Source: Saprospiraceae bacterium (lineage in GTDB: Bacteria; Bacteroidota; Bacteroidia; Chitinophagales; Saprospiraceae). From it: a stretch of 64,000 bases of DNA. This document shows, one piece after another, positions 11,984 to 23,541 of the stretch; position 1 is the first letter of the stretch, and each line of letters begins with the position of its first letter. The stretch covers positions 62,001 to 126,000 of the forward strand of contig JABAQQ010000023.1 in the NCBI GenBank assembly GCA_019187225.1. Direction: 5' to 3'. Under the pieces are notes generated by a model, which saw only the letters and a list, made by a program, of their open reading frames with translations, was not told where the DNA came from and searched no databases. The position numbers were made by a program, and so were the translations under genes.

Positions 11984-12298
11984 ATGCCACGCATCGCCTT
12001 CAAAATGAAGCTCCACCCCGGGCAACAGGACGAGTACAAACGCCGCCACGACGCGCTTTGGCCGGAACTTGAAAACCTGTTGAAAGAAACCGGCATCTCC
12101 GCTTATTCCATTTTTCTGGATGAAAAAACACTCGATCTGTTCGGCGTTTTGAACATCGAAGACCCGGAGCGCCTCGACGACCTGCCCCGCCACCCGGTCA
12201 TGCAACGCTGGTGGGCTTACATGGCCGATATCATGGAAACGAACCCGGACAACTCGCCGGTGAGTGTGCCGCTGCGGGAAGTTTTTTATTTGCCGTAG
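11984..12298 (+). CDS. rhaM: L-rhamnose mutarotase
   Basis: 104 residues, the normal length of the RhaM (DUF718) family of dimeric ferredoxin-like proteins that interconvert the alpha and beta anomers of L-rhamnose. Conserved active-site residues are present at the positions known from E. coli RhaM: His22 in YKRRHDALW and Tyr41 in ISAYSIF; the RWWAYM tryptophan pair is at 76-77. Cytoplasmic, with no signal peptide. It lies between the SGNH hydrolase and the GH78 rhamnosidase. A truncated duplicate of its 5' end sits just upstream. Confidence 0.93.
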   Translation: MPRIAFKMKLHPGQQDEYKRRHDALWPELENLLKETGISAYSIFLDEKTLDLFGVLNIEDPERLDDLPRHPVMQRWWAYMADIMETNPDNSPVSVPLREVFYLP

Positions 12299-12523: not shown

Positions 12524-12559
12524 CACACTTTCCCCTTCGCCAATAATACATTGATAACC

Positions 12560-15328
12560 ATGAAAATAACATCTTTTCTCCTGCTTTTTTGCCTTGCCTT
12601 GTTCCACCTTTCCGCCCAGAATTTTACTGTCGGAAATCTCACCTGCGAACACCGCCTCAACCCCATCGGCCTGGATGCGAAACATCCGCGTTTCAGTTGG
12701 AAGATCCGGACCGAACAACGCGCCTGGCGGCAAAGCGCCTTCCAGATCCAGGTCGCGACCGACGCTGGTTTTTCCGAAAAAAGCATCGTCTGGGATTCCG
12801 GGAAAGTTGAATCCGGCGCTTCCGTTTTGCAAGCCTACAAAGGCGCTGCGCTGCATTCGGGCACGCGTTACCATTGGAGGGTCAAAGTATGGGACGAAAA
12901 AGGTCAGGAATCCGCGTGGAGCGCGACCGCTTTCTGGGACACGGCCCTGCTTTCGCACGCGGATTGGAAAGCGTCCTGGATTGAGCCGGAGCGGGAAGCG
13001 GCGCCGCCGCGTTACTCGCCCGCGTGGATGCTGCGCAAAGAGTTTGTGACGACCAAAGACGTCGCTTTCGCCCATGCCTATGTTACGGCGCACGGTCTTT
13101 ACGAACTCTACATCAACGGTCAGAAAGTAGGCGACGAGGTGCTCACACCCGGTTGGACGACTTACTACAAACGACTTCAATACCAGACTTATGATGTGAC
13201 AAAACTGCTGTGGGAAGGCCCCAACGCAGTGGGCGCCATGCTCGGCGAAGGCTGGTATCGAAGCGGCTTGGGCTGGGAAAAAAACTGGGCGTTTTACGGT
13301 AAAAAATTGGCCTTTCTCTGTCAGATACACATCCGTTATACCGACGGCACGGAGAAATGGGTGGTCACCGACGGCTCCTGGAAATGCTCCAACGAAGGGC
13401 CGGTGCGCAAAAACGAAATTTATTACGGCGAAGACTACGAGGCGTGTCGGGTGGGCGGCTGGCATCGCGCCGGATACGACGACAGCCAGTGGAAATACGC
13501 TGAAAGGGCCAATTATCCCAAATCGGATCTGATCGCAGCCTCCAGTGTGCCCGTGCGTAAAATACAGGAGATCAAACCCGTGCGAATTTTCAAAACACCG
13601 AAAGGCGAACTCGTGGCCGACATGGGACAGAATATGGTGGGCTGGATCCGGCTCAAGGTCAAAGGCAAAAGAGGCCGCACCGTCACGCTCCGCCACGCCG
13701 AAGTGCTCGATAAAAACGGCAATTTTTACACCGACAACCTGCGTTCCGCCAAACAGCAGCTCCGCTATACGTTGTGTGGCGTCAAACAGGGCGAAATCTA
13801 TGAGCCGCATTTCACTTTTATGGGATTCCGTTATGTGGCTGTCGAAGGCTACCCCGGCAAATTGACACCCGATGCGCTAACGGGCATCGTTGTGCATTCC
13901 GACATGACGCCCACGGGTACCTTCGAGTGCTCGCATCCCTTGGTCAATCAATTGCAGCACAACATTTTATGGGGTCAAAAAGGCAACTTTGTGGACATTC
14001 CGACCGACTGCCCGCAACGCGACGAGCGCATGGGCTGGACGGGCGACGCCCAGGCCTTTGCCCGCGCCGCGGCGTTCAACATGGACGTGGCGGCGTTTTT
14101 TACCAAATGGCTGCAAGACCTGGCCGCCGAACAACGGCCCGGCGGCGCGGTGCCCTTCGTCATTCCCGACGTACTGGACCGGCCCGATTCCATGAACGTG
14201 GGCGTTTCCGCCGGCTGGGGCGATGCGGCGGTTATTATTCCCTGGACGATGTACGAAGTGTACGGCGACCGGCAACTGCTCGAACGCCAGTACGCCAGCA
14301 TGAAGGCTTACGTGGATTACATCCACAAAAAATCGGGCGATTCGCTCATCTGGAAGGGCGGCAGTGTCTTCGGCGACTGGTTGTTCTACCACCCTTCGCC
14401 CGACCACCTGGACTACCACGTGCAGCCCGACGCACACACGAACCACGATTTTATCTCGACCGCATTTTTCGCGCACGGCGCCGACCTGGTGAGCCGTGCC
14501 GCGACCGTTTTGGGGAAAACAGAAGACGCTGATTTTTACAAAGACCTTTATGAAAAGATCAAAAAAACGTTTGTCCACGAGTTCATTACGCCGTCAGGTC
14601 GCACGATTTCTTCCGCTTCGCAAACATCGTACGTACTCGCTTTGCATTTCGGCCTGATGCCCGAACACCTGCGGCCTGCCGCCGTGATTTTTTTGAAACA
14701 GGATATTTTGCGCAAGAAAAAACACCTCTCGACGGGTTTTCTCGGCACGCCGTATCTCTGCCACGTTCTTTCCGAAAACGGCGAGTCCGACCTCGCCTAC
14801 GACCTTTTGTTGCAGGAAACCTACCCCTCGTGGCTCTACCCGGTGAAAATGGGCGCCACCACGATCTGGGAACGCTGGGACGGCCAAAAACCGGATTCGA
14901 CATTCCAGACGCCGGGCATGAACTCCTTCAATCACTACGCCTACGGCGCCATCGGCGACTGGATGTACCAGGCTGTTGCGGGGTTGCGACAGGGCGAACC
15001 AGGCTATAAACACATCGTCATCGAGCCGCATCTTACGGATAAACTGACGTATGCAAAAGCCTCGTATCAAAGCAGTTACGGCGAAATCGCTTCGGGCTGG
15101 GAGCGCACGGGCGACAAAGTAGCGCTGCGCGTGACCATCCCTCCGAACACAACCGCCACCATTCGGTTGCCCCGCGCCGATACCAAAGAAGTGCGCGAAA
15201 GCGGTGCGCCGCTGAGCGCCACATCGGGTATCAAAGCCGCTTCCGTCGCGGAAAAATGGATCGAACTGGAAGTTGGATCGGGTAAATATTCATTTGAATG
15301 GACTTTGAAACCTGAAAAAGGCAGATGA
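12560..15328 (+). CDS. Alpha-L-rhamnosidase, glycoside hydrolase family 78
   Basis: 922 residues with an N-terminal signal peptide (MKITSFLLLFCLALFHLSAQ). Fibronectin-like and rhamnosidase N domains (about 22-330) precede the (alpha/alpha)6 barrel and a C-terminal beta domain. The GH78 hallmark DCPQRDERMGWTGD places the conserved Asp at 483 and the general acid Glu at 489; Glu771 in TTIWERWDG is the likely general base. It releases L-rhamnose from glycans or glycosides outside the cytoplasm and so feeds RhaT. The ATG at 12560 is chosen because it begins the signal peptide. No T9SS tail is seen; it is probably periplasmic. Confidence 0.94.
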   Translation: MKITSFLLLFCLALFHLSAQNFTVGNLTCEHRLNPIGLDAKHPRFSWKIRTEQRAWRQSAFQIQVATDAGFSEKSIVWDSGKVESGASVLQAYKGAALHSGTRYHWRVKVWDEKGQESAWSATAFWDTALLSHADWKASWIEPEREAAPPRYSPAWMLRKEFVTTKDVAFAHAYVTAHGLYELYINGQKVGDEVLTPGWTTYYKRLQYQTYDVTKLLWEGPNAVGAMLGEGWYRSGLGWEKNWAFYGKKLAFLCQIHIRYTDGTEKWVVTDGSWKCSNEGPVRKNEIYYGEDYEACRVGGWHRAGYDDSQWKYAERANYPKSDLIAASSVPVRKIQEIKPVRIFKTPKGELVADMGQNMVGWIRLKVKGKRGRTVTLRHAEVLDKNGNFYTDNLRSAKQQLRYTLCGVKQGEIYEPHFTFMGFRYVAVEGYPGKLTPDALTGIVVHSDMTPTGTFECSHPLVNQLQHNILWGQKGNFVDIPTDCPQRDERMGWTGDAQAFARAAAFNMDVAAFFTKWLQDLAAEQRPGGAVPFVIPDVLDRPDSMNVGVSAGWGDAAVIIPWTMYEVYGDRQLLERQYASMKAYVDYIHKKSGDSLIWKGGSVFGDWLFYHPSPDHLDYHVQPDAHTNHDFISTAFFAHGADLVSRAATVLGKTEDADFYKDLYEKIKKTFVHEFITPSGRTISSASQTSYVLALHFGLMPEHLRPAAVIFLKQDILRKKKHLSTGFLGTPYLCHVLSENGESDLAYDLLLQETYPSWLYPVKMGATTIWERWDGQKPDSTFQTPGMNSFNHYAYGAIGDWMYQAVAGLRQGEPGYKHIVIEPHLTDKLTYAKASYQSSYGEIASGWERTGDKVALRVTIPPNTTATIRLPRADTKEVRESGAPLSATSGIKAASVAEKWIELEVGSGKYSFEWTLKPEKGR

Positions 15329-15394: not shown

Positions 15395-15720
15395 TACTTT
15401 TGCCGACAGGCGCAGGTATTACTGCCGCCATACATCGAACTCCCGGATATTTGATCCGATCACGGAGTTTAAAAAGCCGTCAGTTATGCCGGCTATCAGG
15501 TGCTGCAACCGGCCAACCCTTCAGCAGGGGCGAAAAAAAATTGGAGTTGGCCATCCTTTCGCCGGCACCGACCTGTTGCAAAGTTCTGACATTTCTCCCG
15601 CCCCTGCGTCAAAGAGGTGATCCCTGTATTTTACCTGTTATCAGGCTTGTGAGTGTTTTGATACACTACGGGCACAGGGTTTATTTACTCATTTTCAAAG
15701 GCCAGAATAGGGCCTTTTTT
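15395..15720 (+). ncRNA. Candidate structured leader RNA or attenuator upstream of the carbamoyltransferase operon
   Basis: This 466-base gap holds no convincing gene. It begins with a -7-like TACTTTTG (15395-15402) and ends with an intrinsic terminator (15697-15720), 75 bases before the next ATG. Pairing arms in between include GGCCAAC/GTTGGCC (15511-15517 with 15546-15552), GCAGGGGCG/CGCCCCTGC (15524-15532 with 15599-15607; this crosses the first helix, so they are alternatives or a pseudoknot), CCCTGT/ACAGGG (15622-15627 with 15674-15679) and AGTGT/ACACT within it. I do not recognise a known riboswitch, 6S, RNase P or tmRNA consensus. It could be a cis-acting attenuator or a free small RNA. 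Confidence 0.45.
15697..15720 (+). terminator. Intrinsic terminator in the leader of the FN3/symporter operon
   Basis: AAAGGCC, a 7-base loop, GGCCTTT and a run of six T. It stands upstream of the operon in the same direction, with no gene before it to terminate except the distant GH78 gene (370 bases away), which favours an attenuator or small-RNA role. Confidence 0.7.
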
Positions 15721-15794
15721 CCCCTTAACAGTATTACGTTGACCATTCGGCACAAGCCGATACGATACACTGCATCTTTAAAAATACCATTTGG

Positions 15795-16268
15795 ATGAAA
15801 AATTTGATAAAAATAATGCTTGCCTGGTTGCTCATTGCCCGCCCCGGTGCGACGGCCAGGGAACTTGCCGCGCCGGTTTTTGAAAATATGGGGGAGCAGG
15901 TGACAGAGTCAGGGTATGTCAAACTTATCTGGCGCTGGGAATTGCCCGGAAGTGGTCCGGAAGGATACGAGTTTGAATTGCAACAATCTGAAAATGAGAC
16001 TTTCAGTGAAACGAGAACCATTTATACAGGCCCGGATTACGCGACATTTTTGTCCGGCCTGAAAAACGGAAATTACTATCACCGGGTGCGGGTTATCAGC
16101 GAGAAAGACCAGACAAAAAGTGAGTGGTCCGACCCGGTTTTGGTACGGGTAGCGCATCATTCCCTGCATCTTGCCCTGGCATTGTTTGGCGTGGGCGCCA
16201 TTGTTTTTCTTTCAACCATTTTACTAGTGATGCAGGGCAATCGCAATGCAAACCGCAACCAATCGTGA
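15795..16268 (+). CDS. Membrane-anchored protein with one fibronectin type III-like domain
   Basis: 157 residues: signal peptide (about 1-21), one FN3-like beta-sandwich (about 24-118, with VKLIWRWELPG and NYYHRVRVISEKDQTKSEWS), a single transmembrane helix (about 124-147, LHLALALFGVGAIVFLSTIL) and a short cytoplasmic tail rich in Asn and Arg. The domain faces the periplasm. First gene of the tight five-gene operon, 3 bases ahead of the symporter; it may be an accessory or sensor subunit of that transporter (inference). I know of no named family for this arrangement. Confidence 0.7.
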   Translation: MKNLIKIMLAWLLIARPGATARELAAPVFENMGEQVTESGYVKLIWRWELPGSGPEGYEFELQQSENETFSETRTIYTGPDYATFLSGLKNGNYYHRVRVISEKDQTKSEWSDPVLVRVAHHSLHLALALFGVGAIVFLSTILLVMQGNRNANRNQS

Positions 16269-16271
16269 CCT

Positions 16272-17720
16272 ATGGAACATCAATCTGAAATTTTATCTCC
16301 CACAACAGGTTGGCTGCTGATGGCGATATTAAGCGCCCTTTGGATCTTGTTGGGCTTGTATTGGGGGCGGAAAGCCCAAAATATGGACGGATTCATGCTT
16401 GCAGGTCGCAACGTGGGGCTGGCATTCGGGACTGCGACAGCCATGGCTACCTGGATCACATCCAACACGACCATGCTGGCGCCTCAATTCGCCCTGCAAC
16501 TCGGTATTTGGGGTATGATCGCTTATTCCACCGCTGCTTTTGGCTTGTTCCTTTTTGCGCCGTTGGCGAAAAGAATCAAACAATTAATGCCGGCAGGGTA
16601 CACCAGCGGTGAATTTATCCGCTTGCGTTATGGGAATGCTACCTGGTACATTTTTCTTGTAATTTCTATTTTTTATGGATTTACGTGGCTTATCAGCATG
16701 GGAATGGCCGGCGGAATTCTGATGAATGCGCTGGCTGGCATCCGGTACGAAGCCGGCATGACAGTCATTCTATTCGTATGCGTCGTTTATACCGTGTTTG
16801 GTGGTCTCTATGCTGTGATCGGGACTGATTATATTCAATCGCTGATTATCATCATCGGCATTGTTGTGGTAGGCATAGCTGTGATGTCTTCAATTGATCT
16901 GAAGCAGGTTTATGTGGATTTAGAACGTGAAAAACCGATGCTGATCAACGCGCTTCTACCGGCCTCCATCATGGCGATCTTCAACAACCTGCTTTTCGGT
17001 ATTGGCGAAGTATTTCACAGCAATGTTTGGTGGAGCCGCGCCTTTTCGATGCGGGAGGGAATCGGACAGAAAGCTTTTACCATGGCCGGTTTCTTTTGGC
17101 TTCCCGTCCCCATCGCGGCGGGATTTATTGCCCTGACGAGCAATTCGCTGGGCGTGAACAACACCGCCCCTGACATGGTAGGACCGCTCATGGCAGGTCG
17201 CATTTTGGGACAGACCGGCGCCGTCATTGTGTTCATTGTATTTTTTTGCTCCCTGGCATCGAGCATTGACAGTTTGCTGGCAGCCACTTCCGACCTTATC
17301 ACCGAAGATATTTATAAGAAACTGATCAACCCGAGGGTTACGGAAAAACAGCTTCGCAAAGTGTCGGTATCGATCATTTTGGGGTTGGGGCTACTGGCCT
17401 GGTTGGTGTGCCTGCCTCGTATCGGCACCCTGGCGACGGTTTTGTTTTTTGCCGGCCCCATGGTAGCGAGCACGATTTATCCTATTGTGATGGGTTTGTT
17501 TTGGAAAACGGCAAGCGCCAAAGGCGCCATCTGGGCGATGGCGCTCGGCACCGCTGTCGGATTGACGGCTTATTTTCAATTGGGCTGGTACACGGCATCC
17601 CTTATCGGTGCGACGGTTTCGATCCTCGTCACCACCGCTTTTGCCCGATGGCAGCCCGGCAACTTTGACTGGAAAAATCTGGACGAATCTAAACTCCCCG
17701 GCAAACCGCTTCAGCGATGA
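16272..17720 (+). CDS. Sodium:solute symporter family (SSS) transporter
   Basis: 482 residues with about 13 hydrophobic segments, typical for the SSS family. Recognisable parts are the N-terminal GRKAQNMDGFMLAGRNVG and the following TATAMATWITSN, and the CSLASSIDSLLAATSDLITEDIY segment corresponding to the conserved TM8 sodium-site region. The solute is unknown; linkage to a carbamoyltransferase and an amidotransferase makes an amino acid, ureido or amide compound plausible (inference). The start follows the previous stop by three bases; its TGA overlaps the ATG of the 40-residue peptide gene. Confidence 0.88.
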   Translation: MEHQSEILSPTTGWLLMAILSALWILLGLYWGRKAQNMDGFMLAGRNVGLAFGTATAMATWITSNTTMLAPQFALQLGIWGMIAYSTAAFGLFLFAPLAKRIKQLMPAGYTSGEFIRLRYGNATWYIFLVISIFYGFTWLISMGMAGGILMNALAGIRYEAGMTVILFVCVVYTVFGGLYAVIGTDYIQSLIIIIGIVVVGIAVMSSIDLKQVYVDLEREKPMLINALLPASIMAIFNNLLFGIGEVFHSNVWWSRAFSMREGIGQKAFTMAGFFWLPVPIAAGFIALTSNSLGVNNTAPDMVGPLMAGRILGQTGAVIVFIVFFCSLASSIDSLLAATSDLITEDIYKKLINPRVTEKQLRKVSVSIILGLGLLAWLVCLPRIGTLATVLFFAGPMVASTIYPIVMGLFWKTASAKGAIWAMALGTAVGLTAYFQLGWYTASLIGATVSILVTTAFARWQPGNFDWKNLDESKLPGKPLQR

Positions 17721-17839
17721 ACTTTTCAGAATCTTTTTTCAAAATCCTTATTCTGTTTTCCCTCTTGTTCATGAGCATTGGGGCCATCGCATTGATCGCG
17801 ATGCTGATCAAGGATATTAAAAACAAGAAATTATGGTAA
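17717..17839 (+). CDS. 40-residue single-pass membrane peptide
   Basis: A short frame that starts inside the symporter stop (ATGA overlap) and ends inside the start of the carbamoyltransferase gene (ATGGTAA overlap). It encodes MNFSESFFKILILFSL, a continuous hydrophobic stretch to about residue 30, then a basic tail KDIKNKKLW. The overlap on both sides is strong evidence that it is translated. Small one-helix peptides of this kind often stabilise a transporter; here the likely partner is the symporter (inference). Too short for family assignment. Confidence 0.7.
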   Translation: MNFSESFFKILILFSLLFMSIGAIALIAMLIKDIKNKKLW

Positions 17840-18927
17840 CTTCTAAATTACAATTTGAAAAAAATCATCTCGAGGAAAACCCACTGACCTCCGAGGGATT
17901 GTATCCGGACCCGGAAAAATTGCTGGAGAACGATTCTATCCGGTTGGACATTCTCAAAAAACTGGTGGGCCAGTCTATCGTTTCCGTAGACCAATTCGAC
18001 CGCGAATTGGTGCTGGAAACGTGCAAATTTGCCGCATTGCTGGAAGCGACAGAAATCGCCTCCTGTCATCCCCTGGACGGCAAAATCGTCATAACCGCTT
18101 TTTTTGAAGCGAGCACACGCACCCGCCTTTCCTTTGAAAGCGCCGTTCTTCGCCTGGATGGAAAAATCATCAGCATTCCCACCGGAATGGTCACCGGCAT
18201 CGCCAAAGGAGAATCCCTTTCTGACATTGGCGAGATGTTCAATGCCTATGGCGATCTTGTCGTTGTCAGGCATACGGAAACTGGATCAGTGCAGGAAATC
18301 ATGCAGAACCTTCGCCTGCCGCTCATCAACGCCGGCAACGGGTCGGGGGAACATCCCACACAAGCCCTGGCCGATTGGTTTGCCATTTTAAAATGGAAAC
18401 CGAAACTAAAGGGAAACACAGTGCCTCCCAAATACCAGATCCACCTCGGTATCCTCGGCACACCCGGAAGCATGCGGGCTGTCAACAGTTTTTTGCGCAT
18501 GTCGCTGTTGTTCAAACCCGGCATTCGCAAGATTTCCATCGTCTCTGAAATGGCGGATCCGCTCGGGCCGGAATTAGAAGAACTACTGATCAATTCGGGC
18601 ATCAAATATCAGCTGACGAACGACATCAACGACGTGTTGTCCGACCTGGATGTGATTTATATGAACTCTATCGCATTTCTCGGCGATAGTTATAAAACCC
18701 TCGATTCGCGTTACAAACTCGATGCCGACAGCAATTTGAAACCGGACGCCGTCGTACTGCACCCACTCGCGCGGTTGGACGAACTCGATCCCACTTTAGA
18801 CCACACCCATCACAACCTGTACTTCACCCAAGCGCATGGAGCAGTATTCGTGCGACAAGCCCTGATGATCGCTATCCTGAACCGCTTCGACCGGTTGCCG
18901 AAAAATGACATCCCTTTGAGTAATTAA
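17833..18927 (+). CDS. Aspartate/ornithine carbamoyltransferase-family protein of unknown acceptor specificity
   Basis: 364 residues, longer than ordinary PyrB (about 305) because of an N-terminal extension of about 50. The carbamoyl-phosphate site is intact: Ser94-Thr-Arg-Thr-Arg98, HPTQ (174-177), AKGES supplying the 80s-loop lysine, and HPLAR (310-314). The second-substrate region differs: where aspartate carbamoyltransferase has TRVQKER after YM, this protein has NSIAFLG (278-284), so the arginine and glutamine that hold aspartate are missing. The Asp-Gly or SMG loop of ornithine enzymes is not evident either. I therefore call the fold and carbamoyl transfer, not the acceptor. Translationally coupled to the upstream peptide gene; asnB-like gene 14 bases downstream. 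Confidence 0.82.
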   Translation: MVTSKLQFEKNHLEENPLTSEGLYPDPEKLLENDSIRLDILKKLVGQSIVSVDQFDRELVLETCKFAALLEATEIASCHPLDGKIVITAFFEASTRTRLSFESAVLRLDGKIISIPTGMVTGIAKGESLSDIGEMFNAYGDLVVVRHTETGSVQEIMQNLRLPLINAGNGSGEHPTQALADWFAILKWKPKLKGNTVPPKYQIHLGILGTPGSMRAVNSFLRMSLLFKPGIRKISIVSEMADPLGPELEELLINSGIKYQLTNDINDVLSDLDVIYMNSIAFLGDSYKTLDSRYKLDADSNLKPDAVVLHPLARLDELDPTLDHTHHNLYFTQAHGAVFVRQALMIAILNRFDRLPKNDIPLSN

Positions 18928-18941
18928 ATCTGATATAATTT

Positions 18942-20897
18942 ATGTGTGGAATCACCGGGTTTTGGAGCCAACGACCGCTCCGAACGGACGACAATTTGCA
19001 ACTGGCCAAAATGACGGAACGCCTCCATCACCGGGGGCCCGACGGCTATGGTTATCACCTGGATCGCGAAAACGGTCTGGCTATGGGGCACGCGCGCCTT
19101 TCTATCATTGACCTTCAAACAGGCGATCAGCCGCTTTTCAGCCCTGATGCGAACCTGGTACTGACCGTCAATGGCGAGTTTTACGACTACAAACGCATTC
19201 GAACTTCCCTGCGATTGGAAGGCTTTCCCTTCAAAACCAGATCGGACAGCGAAATTGCACTGCCGCTATATCAAAAACACGGGCTCGATTTCGTTCACCA
19301 TTTGCGCGGCGAATTTGCATTCGTATTGTTCGACCAAAAGGAACAACGCCTGATCCTTGTGCGCGACCGGTTCGGTATCAAGCCCCTTTATTATTATTTC
19401 GGTACCGATGTTGTATACTATGGTTCTGAAATAAAGGCCATTTTTGCCCACCACGACGTGCCACGCCGGTTTTCAAAAGAGGGCATCCTGCATCAACTGA
19501 TGCACACGATGGTGCCGGGTACCACCGCATTTGAAAACATTTATGCTTTGAAGCCCGGACACATGCTCATCATTGAGAAAGGGAAATACGGTTTCGAGGC
19601 GAAGGAGCGGCAGTATTGGGACATGGACTTCCCACAAGACAAGGAAAGAGATGATTCCAGATCGCCGGAATATCACATCAGTCAAGTCCAGGATCAGCTC
19701 ATGGAAGCTGTTGCGCTGCGTCTCGAGGCCGATGTGCCGGTGGGTTGCTACCTTTCCGGAGGCATTGACAGTTGCTCTATGCTGGGGCTGGCCTCGTCCC
19801 TGCAACAATCGCCGGTGAAGGCTTTTACGATCAGCTTCGACCACGACGCTTACGACGAATCGGCTATCGCCCGGCAAATGGCGCAAACCACCGGCGCCGA
19901 CCAGGAAGAAATCCGCTTGTCCGCTGCAGATCTGTACGGTTTTAATTATTTCAAAACCATGTACCACGCAGAGCGCACTTTTTACAACACGCTTGGCGTG
20001 GCCAAATGGTGCATGAGTAAAAGAGTCAACAAGTGCGGTTACCGGGTAGTCGTCACCGGTGAAGGATCGGACGAGTTGTTCGGCGGTTATCCGGCATTCA
20101 AACGCGACTATTTGAAATATACCTTTGAAAATGAACCGGATCGTTTGCATCAAATGGATGCTTCCAACGCATTATTCAAAGGCGCTATATTGGCTGATGC
20201 GCCGGTGACGCATCCGGCATTGGAAGCCCTTTGCGGGTTCACTCCTTCGTGGATACAATCGTGGATACAAACCCTCGCCATTGCACGGCCGCTCCTGCAC
20301 GATGATCTGCTGTCGGAAATAAAACACTACGACCCTGTGGAAGCCATCGCAGATTCGTTCGACAAAACGCAGCTGAACGGCAGGCACGTGCTCGACCAAG
20401 CACAATATACGTGGATAAAAACCATGCTCGAATGCCAAATCCTCAATTGGGGCGGCGACCGCGTCGACATGGCGCACTCGATGGAAAGTCGCCCCGCTTT
20501 TCTCGACCACTACGTGGCGGAAATGGCCAGAAACATCCCCCCACACCTGCGCATTCACGGCAATACCGAAAAATGGGTCTTGCGCGAAGCCATGAAAAAC
20601 ATCCTGCCCGATGTGCTCTACAAGCGGGAAAAATTTGCCTTTATGGCGCCACCGGCACATACTTCCGACTATAATAAGCAAGCGCTGCAGAAGTTGGTTG
20701 ACCGTTTTTTGAGCATGGAAAAAATCAAAGAAACGGGCATCTTCGACCTCTACCGGCTTAAACATTTTCTATCGGAGTATGAGCATGACACGGATCCCGT
20801 GTCCCTGGTACGAAAAGACGCTTTATTGAATCACATCCTGGGATTACACATCCTGCACGAACAGTTTATTGAGGCCAAGGTACTTGCAGAGACATGA
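18942..20897 (+). CDS. Asparagine synthetase B-like glutamine amidotransferase
   Basis: 651 residues. The class II amidotransferase domain begins with the catalytic Cys2 (MCGITGF) and includes the HHRGPDG loop and NGEFYDY. The synthetase domain has the PP-loop LSGGIDSC (about 271-278) for ATP-dependent activation of a carboxylate, and GEGSDELFGGY. It converts a carboxylate to an amide using glutamine, classically Asp to Asn. As the last gene of the operon it may amidate the substrate or product of the neighbouring carbamoyltransferase rather than serve general asparagine synthesis (inference). AsnB paralogues in biosynthetic clusters look the same at this level. Confidence 0.88.
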   Translation: MCGITGFWSQRPLRTDDNLQLAKMTERLHHRGPDGYGYHLDRENGLAMGHARLSIIDLQTGDQPLFSPDANLVLTVNGEFYDYKRIRTSLRLEGFPFKTRSDSEIALPLYQKHGLDFVHHLRGEFAFVLFDQKEQRLILVRDRFGIKPLYYYFGTDVVYYGSEIKAIFAHHDVPRRFSKEGILHQLMHTMVPGTTAFENIYALKPGHMLIIEKGKYGFEAKERQYWDMDFPQDKERDDSRSPEYHISQVQDQLMEAVALRLEADVPVGCYLSGGIDSCSMLGLASSLQQSPVKAFTISFDHDAYDESAIARQMAQTTGADQEEIRLSAADLYGFNYFKTMYHAERTFYNTLGVAKWCMSKRVNKCGYRVVVTGEGSDELFGGYPAFKRDYLKYTFENEPDRLHQMDASNALFKGAILADAPVTHPALEALCGFTPSWIQSWIQTLAIARPLLHDDLLSEIKHYDPVEAIADSFDKTQLNGRHVLDQAQYTWIKTMLECQILNWGGDRVDMAHSMESRPAFLDHYVAEMARNIPPHLRIHGNTEKWVLREAMKNILPDVLYKREKFAFMAPPAHTSDYNKQALQKLVDRFLSMEKIKETGIFDLYRLKHFLSEYEHDTDPVSLVRKDALLNHILGLHILHEQFIEAKVLAET

Positions 20898-20991: not shown

Positions 20992-22266
20992 ATGCGCATT
21001 GAACCATACCAACTCGCCGAACACAACGCATCCCACCTCTCAGCCCACCGGCGCCGCTTCGATTTTCTCGCGGCGGAAATTCCCGCCGTGGAGGAAATTC
21101 TGCAAAAACTGATTGATTTTCAAATTGCCATTCCTTCATGGGCACTCGGCACCGGCGGCACCCGCTTCGGGCGTTTTCCCGGCGGCGGCGAACCGCGCAG
21201 CCTGGAAGAAAAAATGGAAGACGTGGCGCTGCTCCATGCGCTCAACCGCTCCAGCGACGCCATTTCACTGCACATCCCCTGGGATATTCCGAAATATCCG
21301 GCAGCCATCCGCACCCTGGCGACCCAACTCGGCCTGCGTTTCGACGCGGTGAACTCCAATACGTTCCAGGACCAGCCCGGACAGGCGCTCTCCTACAAAT
21401 TCGGTTCGATGCAACACGTGGACAAAGCCGTGCGGCAGCAGGCGGTGGAACACAACATGGAGGTCATTCGCCACGGCGTGGAACTCGGCTCGAAAAGCAT
21501 CACCGTATGGCTGTCCGACGGTTCCTGTTTTCCGGGGCAGTTGAATTTCCGCCGGGCCTTTCAGAACACGCTCGAAAGTCTGCGGGATGTGTACGCAGCC
21601 CTGCCGGAGGACTGGAAAATGTACGTCGAATACAAGGCCTGCGAGCCCAATTTTTACAGCATGACCGTCGGCGATTGGGGACAATCGCTGCTCTACGCCA
21701 ACAAATTGGGCGAAAAAGCCTTCACGCTCGTCGATCTCGGCCACCACCTCCCCAACGCCAACATCGAACAAATTGTCGCCCTTCTTTTAATGGAAGGCAA
21801 ACTCGGCGGCTTCCATTTCAACGACTCCAAATACGGCGACGATGACCTCACGGTAGGCAGCATCAAGCCCTATCAGTTGTTCCTCATCTTCAACGAATTG
21901 GTGGAAGGCATGGACGCGCGCGGCATGAAACACGCGACGGACCTGGCCTGGATGATTGACGCATCGCATAACGTTAAAGATCCGCTCGAAGACCTGCTGC
22001 AATCCGTGGAAGCCATCAAGATCGCCTACGCACAAGCTTTGCTGGTAGACAAAAAAGCCCTGACCGGGGCGCAGTTGGAGAACGACACCGCCCGTTGTCA
22101 GGAAATATTGCAGTCCGCTTTCCGCACCGACGTGCGTCCGCTCGTAGCGGAGGCGCGATTGCGGGCAGGCGGGGCGATGGAACCGGTGGCGTTTTTCAGA
22201 GATTTAAACATCAGGGAAATATTGATCCGGGAACGCGGAGCAAAAACGGTAGCAACGGGTTTGTAA
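20992..22266 (+). CDS. rhaA: L-rhamnose isomerase
   Basis: 424 residues, matching the Pseudomonas stutzeri-type and Bacteroidota L-rhamnose isomerases (sugar isomerase TIM barrel). Metal-binding segments are visible: EYKACEPNFYSM, LVDLGHHLPNANIEQ and GFHFNDSKYGDDD. It converts L-rhamnose to L-rhamnulose in the cytoplasm. The ATG at 20992 is used because the family begins near here; the 41-residue upstream extension overlaps asnB and is not protein-like. It starts the second rhamnose block (rhaA-kinase-lldD), separated from the first by the unrelated operon, with its own promoter. Confidence 0.93.
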   Translation: MRIEPYQLAEHNASHLSAHRRRFDFLAAEIPAVEEILQKLIDFQIAIPSWALGTGGTRFGRFPGGGEPRSLEEKMEDVALLHALNRSSDAISLHIPWDIPKYPAAIRTLATQLGLRFDAVNSNTFQDQPGQALSYKFGSMQHVDKAVRQQAVEHNMEVIRHGVELGSKSITVWLSDGSCFPGQLNFRRAFQNTLESLRDVYAALPEDWKMYVEYKACEPNFYSMTVGDWGQSLLYANKLGEKAFTLVDLGHHLPNANIEQIVALLLMEGKLGGFHFNDSKYGDDDLTVGSIKPYQLFLIFNELVEGMDARGMKHATDLAWMIDASHNVKDPLEDLLQSVEAIKIAYAQALLVDKKALTGAQLENDTARCQEILQSAFRTDVRPLVAEARLRAGGAMEPVAFFRDLNIREILIRERGAKTVATGL

Positions 22267-22281
22267 ACGAATACCTTGATC

Positions 22282-23541
22282 ATGATACTGGTCTTCGACA
22301 TCGGCAAAACCAACAAAAAATGCTTCGTCTTCGACGCGGACTACCGCATCGTGTTTGAAAAATCGGCGCAGTTGCCCGAAACGACCGATGAGGACGGCGA
22401 CCCTTGCGAAGATGTCAACCTGCTGACAAAGTGGGTGCTGGATTCGTTCCGGGAAATTATGGAGAACCGGCAATTCTCGATTTCGGCGGTCAATTGTACG
22501 ACCTATGGGGCCAGTTTTGTCTGTATTGGGGGGGATGGGAGGCCCGTCCTGCCGCTCTACAACTATCTCAAGCCTTTTCCCGAAAAACTGCGATCGCAGT
22601 TTTTCGACACCTATGGCGGCGAGGAAAAGATATCGCTCGAAACGGCGTCGCCCGTGCTCGGCAGTCTCAACTCCGGCTTGCAATTGTACCGTTTGAAACA
22701 CCATAAACCCGATGATTTTCAAAAGGTTAAGTATGCCCTGCACCTGCCGCAATACGTGGCTTCCCTGGTCTCGGGTCAATATTTTTCCGACATCACGAGC
22801 ATCGGTTGCCATACCATGTTGTGGGATTTTCAAAAGAACGACTACCACGATTGGGTGAAAAAAGAAGGTGTTTCAGAAAAACTCGCTCCGGTCATTCCAT
22901 CCAATGCTGCGGTCGAACATCCGAAATCCGAAATCCGAAATCCGAAATTAAAAACAGGCGTCGGTTTGCACGACAGCAGCGCAGCGCTGATCCCTTATCT
23001 TGCTTGTTTTCACGAACCCTTCGCACTGATCTCTACCGGCACCTGGAATATTTCGCTGAACCCTTACAACAACCGGCCACTGACGGCCGAAGAACTGGCA
23101 CAGGATTGCCTTTGCTACCTGACTTTCCAGGGGAAACCGGTGAAGGCTTCGCGGCTTTTTGCAGGATATGAACATGAACAGGAAGTAAAAAGAATCGCGG
23201 CGCAGTTTGGCGTAGCCGAAGATTTCTATCAAAAAACAAGCTTCGGAACGGTCAATCCCGCCGGGAAAGCCTACCTGGATATGATGCGCCAATTGATTGA
23301 AGAACAGGCAGTTTCAACAAAATTGGTGTTGCATGGCACTTCCGTTCGACGCATTTTTATAGACGGCGGCTTTTCCAAAAATGAAATTTTTATGGCGCTG
23401 TTGGCGCAGGCATTTCCCGAAATGGAAATCTTTGCTTCGGAAGTCGCACAAGCGACAGCGCTTGGCGCGGCCTTGGCGATCCACCGACATTGGAATCAGA
23501 AACCTTTGCCTCAAAACCTGATCTACCTGAAAAAATACTGA
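22282..23541 (+). CDS. FGGY-family kinase, probable L-rhamnulokinase
   Basis: 419 residues, short for an FGGY kinase. Phosphate-binding FDIGKTNKKCFVFD opens the N-terminal lobe; STGTWNISLNPYN and the FIDGGFSKNEIFMALLAQ segment belong to the C-terminal ATP lobe. Position between rhaA and lldD and the absence of another kinase in the region point to rhamnulose as substrate (inference). A heptanucleotide repeat (22921-22948) runs in frame through the interlobe part, adding PKSEIRNPK at about residues 214-222. The frame is kept, so the gene appears functional. Start at ATG 22282 rather than TTG 22276. Confidence 0.85.
   Translation: MILVFDIGKTNKKCFVFDADYRIVFEKSAQLPETTDEDGDPCEDVNLLTKWVLDSFREIMENRQFSISAVNCTTYGASFVCIGGDGRPVLPLYNYLKPFPEKLRSQFFDTYGGEEKISLETASPVLGSLNSGLQLYRLKHHKPDDFQKVKYALHLPQYVASLVSGQYFSDITSIGCHTMLWDFQKNDYHDWVKKEGVSEKLAPVIPSNAAVEHPKSEIRNPKLKTGVGLHDSSAALIPYLACFHEPFALISTGTWNISLNPYNNRPLTAEELAQDCLCYLTFQGKPVKASRLFAGYEHEQEVKRIAAQFGVAEDFYQKTSFGTVNPAGKAYLDMMRQLIEEQAVSTKLVLHGTSVRRIFIDGGFSKNEIFMALLAQAFPEMEIFASEVAQATALGAALAIHRHWNQKPLPQNLIYLKKY
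22921..22948 (+). repeat. In-frame CCGAAAT heptamer repeat inside the kinase gene
   Basis: Four perfect CCGAAAT units in the coding sequence. Three units (21 bases) equal seven codons, so the reading frame can be kept. The encoded PKSEIRNPK does not look like part of a kinase fold. Confidence 0.9.

Follow-up and report, generated by a model that had tools for sequence, protein, structure and literature searches.

Carbamoyl-glutamine amide (CGA) is described as an osmolyte in the accessible text of three papers (PMC1224877, PMC7824335, PMC3857566), and PMC1224877 traces knowledge of the compound back to 1991, citing Galinski and Oren. A second blocked glutamine derivative, N-acetylglutaminylglutamine amide (NAGGN), serves in osmoprotection, and its terminal glutamine is amidated by an AsnB-type enzyme (PMC8070244, in the part available). 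No genes for CGA were found named in the accessible text of the open-access literature searched. Here, we describe a five-gene cassette in a 64,000-nt stretch of DNA (the window) from a Saprospiraceae bacterium (GCA_019187225.1, contig JABAQQ010000023.1, positions 62,001-126,000). The cassette encodes an FN3-like protein with a putative transmembrane segment (FN3/TM protein), an SSS-family symporter, a hydrophobic peptide of 40 residues, a carbamoyltransferase (CT) and an AsnB-type amidotransferase. We consider it on balance probable, from the predicted functions of these genes, that the cassette serves the synthesis and uptake of an osmolyte, for which we propose CGA.

Conservation of the five-gene cassette

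Relatives of the cassette were collected by a genome-contig scan with an alignment of the window's CT and one same-genus ortholog, and the best 80 of the 97 relatives formed the locus set. The cassette genes that were detected had the same order and the same strand at 80 of the 80 loci, a constancy that, judged without a computed chance expectation, cannot be due to chance. The five genes therefore form one unit, as a preliminary description of the window had held, and their order is conserved well beyond Bacteroidota. According to record titles and tree labels, the holders belong to at least four phyla (Bacteroidota, Verrucomicrobiota, Planctomycetota and Myxococcota). In the window, all five reading frames are open, start with ATG and end at a stop codon, and they are spaced, in gene order, by a gap of 3 nt, overlaps of 4 nt and 7 nt, and a gap of 14 nt (Table 1).

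The symporter and the CT were both detected at 80/80 loci and the AsnB-type enzyme at 79/80, the only miss being a 3.2 kb contig (L125) on which the CT match stops 91 bases before the contig end. The pairing of predicted carbamoylation with predicted amidation, which the preliminary description had proposed, is supported. Homologs of the FN3/TM protein were found by tblastn at 64 loci and by a scan of open reading frames (ORFs) at six more; the 16 loci without a tblastn match comprise six with contigs that are too short, six with a similar ORF and four without any. The 40-residue peptide was matched by tblastn at 42/80 loci. The other 38 each hold at least one hydrophobic, Trp-ending candidate between the symporter and the CT, as found by an ORF scan run without a shuffle control, and a few of these candidates need an upstream-extended or non-ATG reading. 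All five genes were detected by tblastn alone at 33/80 loci. Collectively, these results tentatively suggest that one cassette carries a new glutamine carbamoyltransferase family, a new AsnB-type amidotransferase along with a symporter of its own through at least four phyla, a composite statement to which we give slightly less than an even chance.

Table 1. Features of the cassette and its surroundings, in positions of the window
Feature	Position	Strand	Length	Description
rhaM	11984-12298			Upstream of cassette
Rhamnosidase	12551-15328			Upstream of cassette
Leader	15400-15794	+		Terminator-like hairpin at 15697-15717; not conserved among relatives compared
FN3/TM gene	15795-16268	+	157 aa	FN3-like, probably exported; hydrophobic segment at C-terminus
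Symporter gene	16272-17720	+	482 aa	SSS-family (SSF)
Small peptide gene	17717-17839	+	40 aa	Hydrophobic; last residue Trp
CT gene	17833-18927	+	364 aa	PyrB-fold carbamoyltransferase with altered substrate pocket; proposed glutamine carbamoyltransferase
AsnB-type gene	18942-20897	+	651 aa	Glutamine-dependent amidotransferase; proposed alpha-carboxyl amidation of N-carbamoylglutamine
rhaI	20992-22266			Downstream of cassette
FGGY kinase	22276-23541			Downstream of cassette

The carbamoyltransferase has an altered acceptor pocket

In structures of aspartate carbamoyltransferase (ATCase), known from ATCase-PALA work, R167 holds the alpha-carboxylate of the substrate, and R229 and Q231 hold its side-chain carboxylate. 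To compare these residues, 81 CTs were aligned in E. coli ATCase numbering. The carbamoyl-phosphate site is preserved, with S52, T53, R54, T55, K84, R105 and H134 kept in 81/81 sequences and Q137 in 80/81, and R167 is likewise kept in all 81. In contrast, R229 is replaced by Ser in 80/81 and Q231 by Ala in 77/81. The retention of R167 together with the replacement of R229 and Q231 suggests that the CT most likely accepts an alpha-amino acid whose side chain is neutral. The same pathway could therefore act on an amino acid other than glutamine and yield the N-carbamoyl amide of asparagine or of another neutral amino acid, which would be new as a solute. The pocket is compatible with this alternative, since its change shows only a probable loss of acidic side-chain recognition, and no glutamine-specific motif was identified. 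We nevertheless regard it as unlikely, as no N-carbamoyl amino-acid amide other than CGA is named as an osmolyte in the accessible text of the literature searched.

The CT matches the Pfam family OTCace_N (PF02729) with 117.6 bits against a cut-off of 29.9, and OTCace with 46 bits. It stays under the ATCase equivalog cut-offs (TIGR00670, 168.1 vs 236.95; PRK00856, 167.2 vs 263), both of which are passed by the genome's own PyrB, encoded on contig 25 (309.9 and 394, respectively). These two proteins are the PF02729 members of the whole genome (G000), and no ornithine or succinylornithine carbamoyltransferase was seen among them. The CT is thus not the only PyrB-like protein of its genome, and a second, PyrB-like match was also present in 5/5 other holder genomes searched. 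A tree of 48 rows was built that included 20 CTs (the window's and those of 19 of the 80 loci, chosen by hand), 24 PyrB-type ORFs from 44 loci (L004-L047), ArgI and YgeW. The CTs formed a clade of their own with a support of 100/100; the placement of ArgI, YgeW and the nearest PyrB group in this tree is uncertain because of long branches. An AlphaFold2 model of the CT (pLDDT 85, with 29 of the 81 sequences used) had E. coli ATCase as its top Foldseek match. Model scores, pocket residues and the separate clade agree with the first impression that this carbamoyltransferase is atypical.

The AsnB-type amidotransferase retains its catalytic motifs

The amidotransferase matches Asn_synthase with 273 bits and passes the broad model TIGR01536 (421.6 vs 267.1), and it falls below the NAGGN (TIGR03104, 283.6 vs 570.1), XrtA and AsnB-B equivalogs. 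Seventy-three sequences were aligned, comprising the window's and those from 72 of the 78 loci matched at E 1e-20, each covering more than 560 residues. The glutaminase Cys1 is kept in 69/73, with Ser in the remaining four. The S and D of the pyrophosphate loop SGG(x)DS and the motif GEGxDE are present in 73/73, and K449 in 72/73. A Sinorhizobium meliloti pSymB protein taken as AsnO reaches 360 against the TIGR03104 cut-off of 570 and may not be AsnO.

The fold and sequence of the two enzymes are PyrB- and AsnB-like, and the TIGR01536 score would suit an asparagine synthase, so that the cassette might be thought to hold additional copies of ordinary ATCase and asparagine synthase. This is very improbable, because the aspartate-binding residues are lost in nearly all CT orthologs, the CT stays under the ATCase cut-offs, and the window's genome holds both a true PyrB and another AsnB that scores over the cut-off.

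The symporter and its small partners

The symporter is a member of Pfam SSF (PF00474, 103.2 vs a cut-off of 22.8) and scores under all listed NCBIfam cut-offs, including that of the sss superfamily (TIGR00813, 148.8 vs 184). For the window's protein, as for a homolog from Rhodopirellula, the solved structures closest in sequence are those of DUR3 urea symporters, and a transported solute with a ureido end group would fit. SSS transporters with small membrane subunits exist, and the 40-residue peptide is a probable subunit of this symporter. The FN3/TM protein matches fn3 with 17.7 bits, under the Pfam cut-off of 25. A proline transporter called opuE is reported in a 2023 paper (PMC10742547) to have been transferred, in hypersaline mats, between a planctomycete and a myxobacterium; this opuE may or may not be the cassette symporter.

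Hydrolases, regulator and betaine genes beside the cassette

Neighbouring genes were counted at the 80 loci by tblastn at E 1e-10. A hydantoinase/carbamoylase-type hydrolase of the M20 family was found at 47 loci and an isochorismatase-type amidase at 41. The M20 enzyme passes the hydantoinase/carbamoylase model TIGR01879 (352 vs 204), and its closest solved relative is an N-carbamoyl-L-amino-acid hydrolase. Of 43 aligned sequences, at least 90% retain its metal and substrate motifs, including the N and R that act in substrate binding; regular expressions recovered the N/R motif in 19/43 and the C-terminal His in 10/43, and we relied on the alignment, in which both reach at least 90%. For the amidase, regular expressions found the Asp and Cys motifs in 33/33 sequences and the Lys motif in 31/33. 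Two loci encode M20-carbamoylase-like proteins with a long N-terminal extension between the CT and the amidotransferase (L052:9113-12010, 965 aa; L068:9286-12012, 908 aa). Pfam gave no match on the L052 protein, and the M20 match counted for L068 is probably this fused protein.

The hydrolases, and the urea symporters as best solved relatives of the cassette symporter, would also suit a scavenging route, in which a ureido compound is imported, the hydrolases degrade it and the CT runs in reverse to give carbamoyl phosphate. Its start from uptake is that of the preliminary description, and its logic is YgeW-like. We think such a route improbable: the near-universal partner of the CT (79/80) is an ATP-consuming amidotransferase, and the hydrolases were seen neither at many of the loci nor in the window's genome. 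In addition, E. coli YqeA (carbamate-kinase-like), HyuA and YgeY had no match in the 80 loci at E 1e-3, in a weak single-query search whose reach is small, because the YgeY query, an M20-type protein, did not recover the 47 M20 hydrolases either.

A MarR protein gene lies upstream of the cassette at 20/80 loci. A BCCT transporter was found at 9/80 and a GSMT and SDMT pair (glycine-betaine synthesis) at 7/80, counts that stand without a background rate. The loci with GSMT, SDMT and BCCT are from Planctomycetota (L103, L104, L105, L106, L110, L111 and L118). In six of them, the three genes precede the cassette on its own strand, and in L118 they lie on the opposite strand, which makes at least two arrangements; in L104, the matches are partial only. 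GSMT scores over its cut-off (492.7 vs 350) and the SDMT-like protein under its own (374 vs 550), while the BCCT protein does not reach the betaine equivalog (505 vs 650) and passes the BCCT subfamily model. A further family of ~330 aa is encoded near the cassette at seven loci, and two of its members (L089:3709-4641 and L091:12170-13168) have no Pfam match.

A proposed osmolyte pathway

Carbamoylation, amidation, putative enzymes for undoing both, a symporter and nearby betaine genes in some Planctomycetota together suggest that the product of the cassette is an osmolyte, namely an uncharged amide of an N-carbamoyl amino acid. This product would probably protect cells from salt, and it is possibly CGA. 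In the proposed pathway, the CT would move the carbamoyl group from carbamoyl phosphate onto the alpha-amino group of glutamine, and the AsnB-type enzyme would then adenylate the free alpha-carboxyl and swap in an amide from glutamine. The symporter and the 40-residue peptide, probably with the FN3/TM protein, would import the solute. At loci that have them, the M20 carbamoylase-type enzyme and the isochorismatase-type amidase would dismantle it, and the MarR protein would regulate the cassette. The preliminary description had seen a pathway built on uptake of a small metabolite; the uptake is retained here, but the set is better read as osmolyte synthesis with uptake than as processing of an imported nutrient.

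Several points weigh against this osmolyte pathway. Glutamine as the acceptor is inferred from the lost side-chain residues and the known solute, with no recognised glutamine motif. The M20 enzyme scores over NF006771, the subfamily model that bears the name allantoate amidohydrolase (512.6 vs 399), and under the equivalog for N-carbamyl-L-glutamate amidohydrolase (350.9 vs 520), so that more than one substrate is conceivable. M20 was not seen at 33/80 loci and the amidase not at 39/80, some of the contigs being short; neither was found in the window's genome, in a search with positive controls for the amidase and without one for M20. GSMT and SDMT adjoin the cassette at 7/80 loci only. Chitinophaga and Sphingobacterium, which we take not to be salt-habitat organisms, also hold the cassette. 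According to the accessible text of PMC3857566, CGA is among the minor solutes of E. marismortui, and extracts of this organism gave no CGA signal in Raman spectra, the compound being outside the spectral library. The main solutes seen by NMR in Rhodopirellula baltica were sucrose, glutamate, trehalose and MGG, and CGA is not reported in the part of PMC3694870 available; the cassette occurs in an R. baltica record (BR-MGV, L109) and may or may not occur in the NMR strain. Finally, the words 'asparagine', 'carbamoyl' and 'symporter' do not occur in the main text of the paper on the salt-shock array of R. baltica SH1 (PMC2754498). As for the known CGA producer Ectothiorhodospira, no such record title was among the best 80 of the 97 relatives, and no search was aimed at its genomes.

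If the proposal holds, genes would be assigned to an osmolyte known since 1991 and its producers would become predictable, and a carbamoyltransferase with a new acceptor would be gained. Bacteria of the sea and of soda lakes would then widely make a nitrogen-rich osmolyte that is not routinely sought, and its compact module would be a candidate for trials of tolerance to salt or desiccation. Databases likely label such proteins PyrB and AsnB, which would keep the pathway hidden.

Genomic setting, distribution and leader

As noted from the outset, the cassette sits inside a rhamnose region, with rhaM and a rhamnosidase on one side and rhaI and an FGGY kinase on the other. Within the window's genus, a CT ortholog was found in 1/36 other genomes searched (G029, 84%), where the cassette is flanked by a MarR gene and a sigma-factor gene and its flanks are unlike the window's. 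At 2/22 same-genus rhaI loci examined, rhamnosidase, rhaM and rhaI directly adjoin one another and the cassette is missing; these are no clean empty sites, as the order of rhaM and rhamnosidase differs from that in the window. The cassette-free loci, the different flanks in G029 and the 1/36 distribution support arrival as one unit. The acquisition suggested in the preliminary description is therefore plausible, short of a clean empty site.

Among 395 genomes sampled from the phylum, the window's CT was the sole ortholog, and the next match by E-value was 36% identical. The genus of one Rhodopirellula holder had a CT match in 11/14 genomes. Going by their names, many cassette holders are presumably marine or soda-lake organisms. 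Reichenbachiella agariperforans DSM 26134 and Flavilitoribacter nigricans DSM 23189 are two of the holders. A plasmid search with the CT gave a single Aeromonas match, which at 37% is not an ortholog. An IMG/VR scan gave 11 stretches that fit a pattern, one of which encodes a relative (32%, not an ortholog), and thus no sign of a viral carrier. A compact cassette that is sporadic in the window's genus (1/36 others) might also make a specialised metabolite, such as a cyclised ureido amino acid with a signalling or antagonistic role. We hold this to be quite improbable, since the order is kept across phyla, with the symporter, and betaine synthesis and uptake genes lie near some loci. Moreover, the nameable neighbour families at five or more loci include no exporter or further tailoring enzyme, and one family is without a Pfam match.

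The leader upstream of the first gene folds better than its shuffles (z -3.03, with 0/100 shuffles doing as well), and a custom script placed the terminator-like hairpin 77 bases ahead of the first gene. A consensus terminator scan of the region listed 11 such sites, where shuffles gave 7.2 (sd 2.6), and did not include this hairpin, and an Rfam scan of the window gave no match. At E 1, blastn with the leader sequence found nothing in the 80 loci, and no comparable hairpin was found in 61 upstream regions of relatives tested. Since neither sequence nor hairpin recurs in the relatives tested, a riboswitch or attenuator common to the cassettes was rejected. Among the loci compared, the structured leader is local to the window's genome and not a feature of the cassette. 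The structured, terminator-bearing leader of the preliminary description thus stands as to its folding and the hairpin found by script, but the consensus scan missed the hairpin and the relatives tested are without it.

Comparison with known systems

The CT shares with PyrB the ATCase fold, the carbamoyl-phosphate site and the alpha-carboxylate Arg. It differs in the replacement of R229 and Q231, in a loop that is three columns shorter, in a weakly conserved N-terminal extension of ~45 residues and in its separate clade. The symporter resembles DUR3 and other SSS proteins as a Pfam SSF member with DUR3 as best solved relative by sequence, whereas its partners are the 40-residue peptide and the FN3/TM protein. 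The cassette-associated M20 enzyme is like the hydantoinases/carbamoylases and allantoate amidohydrolases in passing TIGR01879 and NF006771, and unlike them in its linkage to a carbamoyltransferase and an amidotransferase.

Compared with the NAGGN pathway, as far as the available part of PMC8070244 describes it, the cassette differs in three respects. The amino end in NAGGN is acetylated and peptide-bonded by Ngg, whereas carbamoylation is proposed here; the named operon genes include no carbamoyltransferase or symporter; and the cassette AsnB does not reach the TIGR03104 cut-off (283.6 vs 570.1). The likeness may extend to regulation. The MarR regulator PA3458, a repressor of the operon, lies beside PA3459-PA3461 (asnO/ngg) (PMC8070244), and the MarR protein found at a quarter of the cassette loci (20/80) is similar at the family level. 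With an AsnB-type enzyme that amidates a glutamine derivative and a MarR protein that represses the operon, NAGGN synthesis is the closest working parallel to the proposed pathway.

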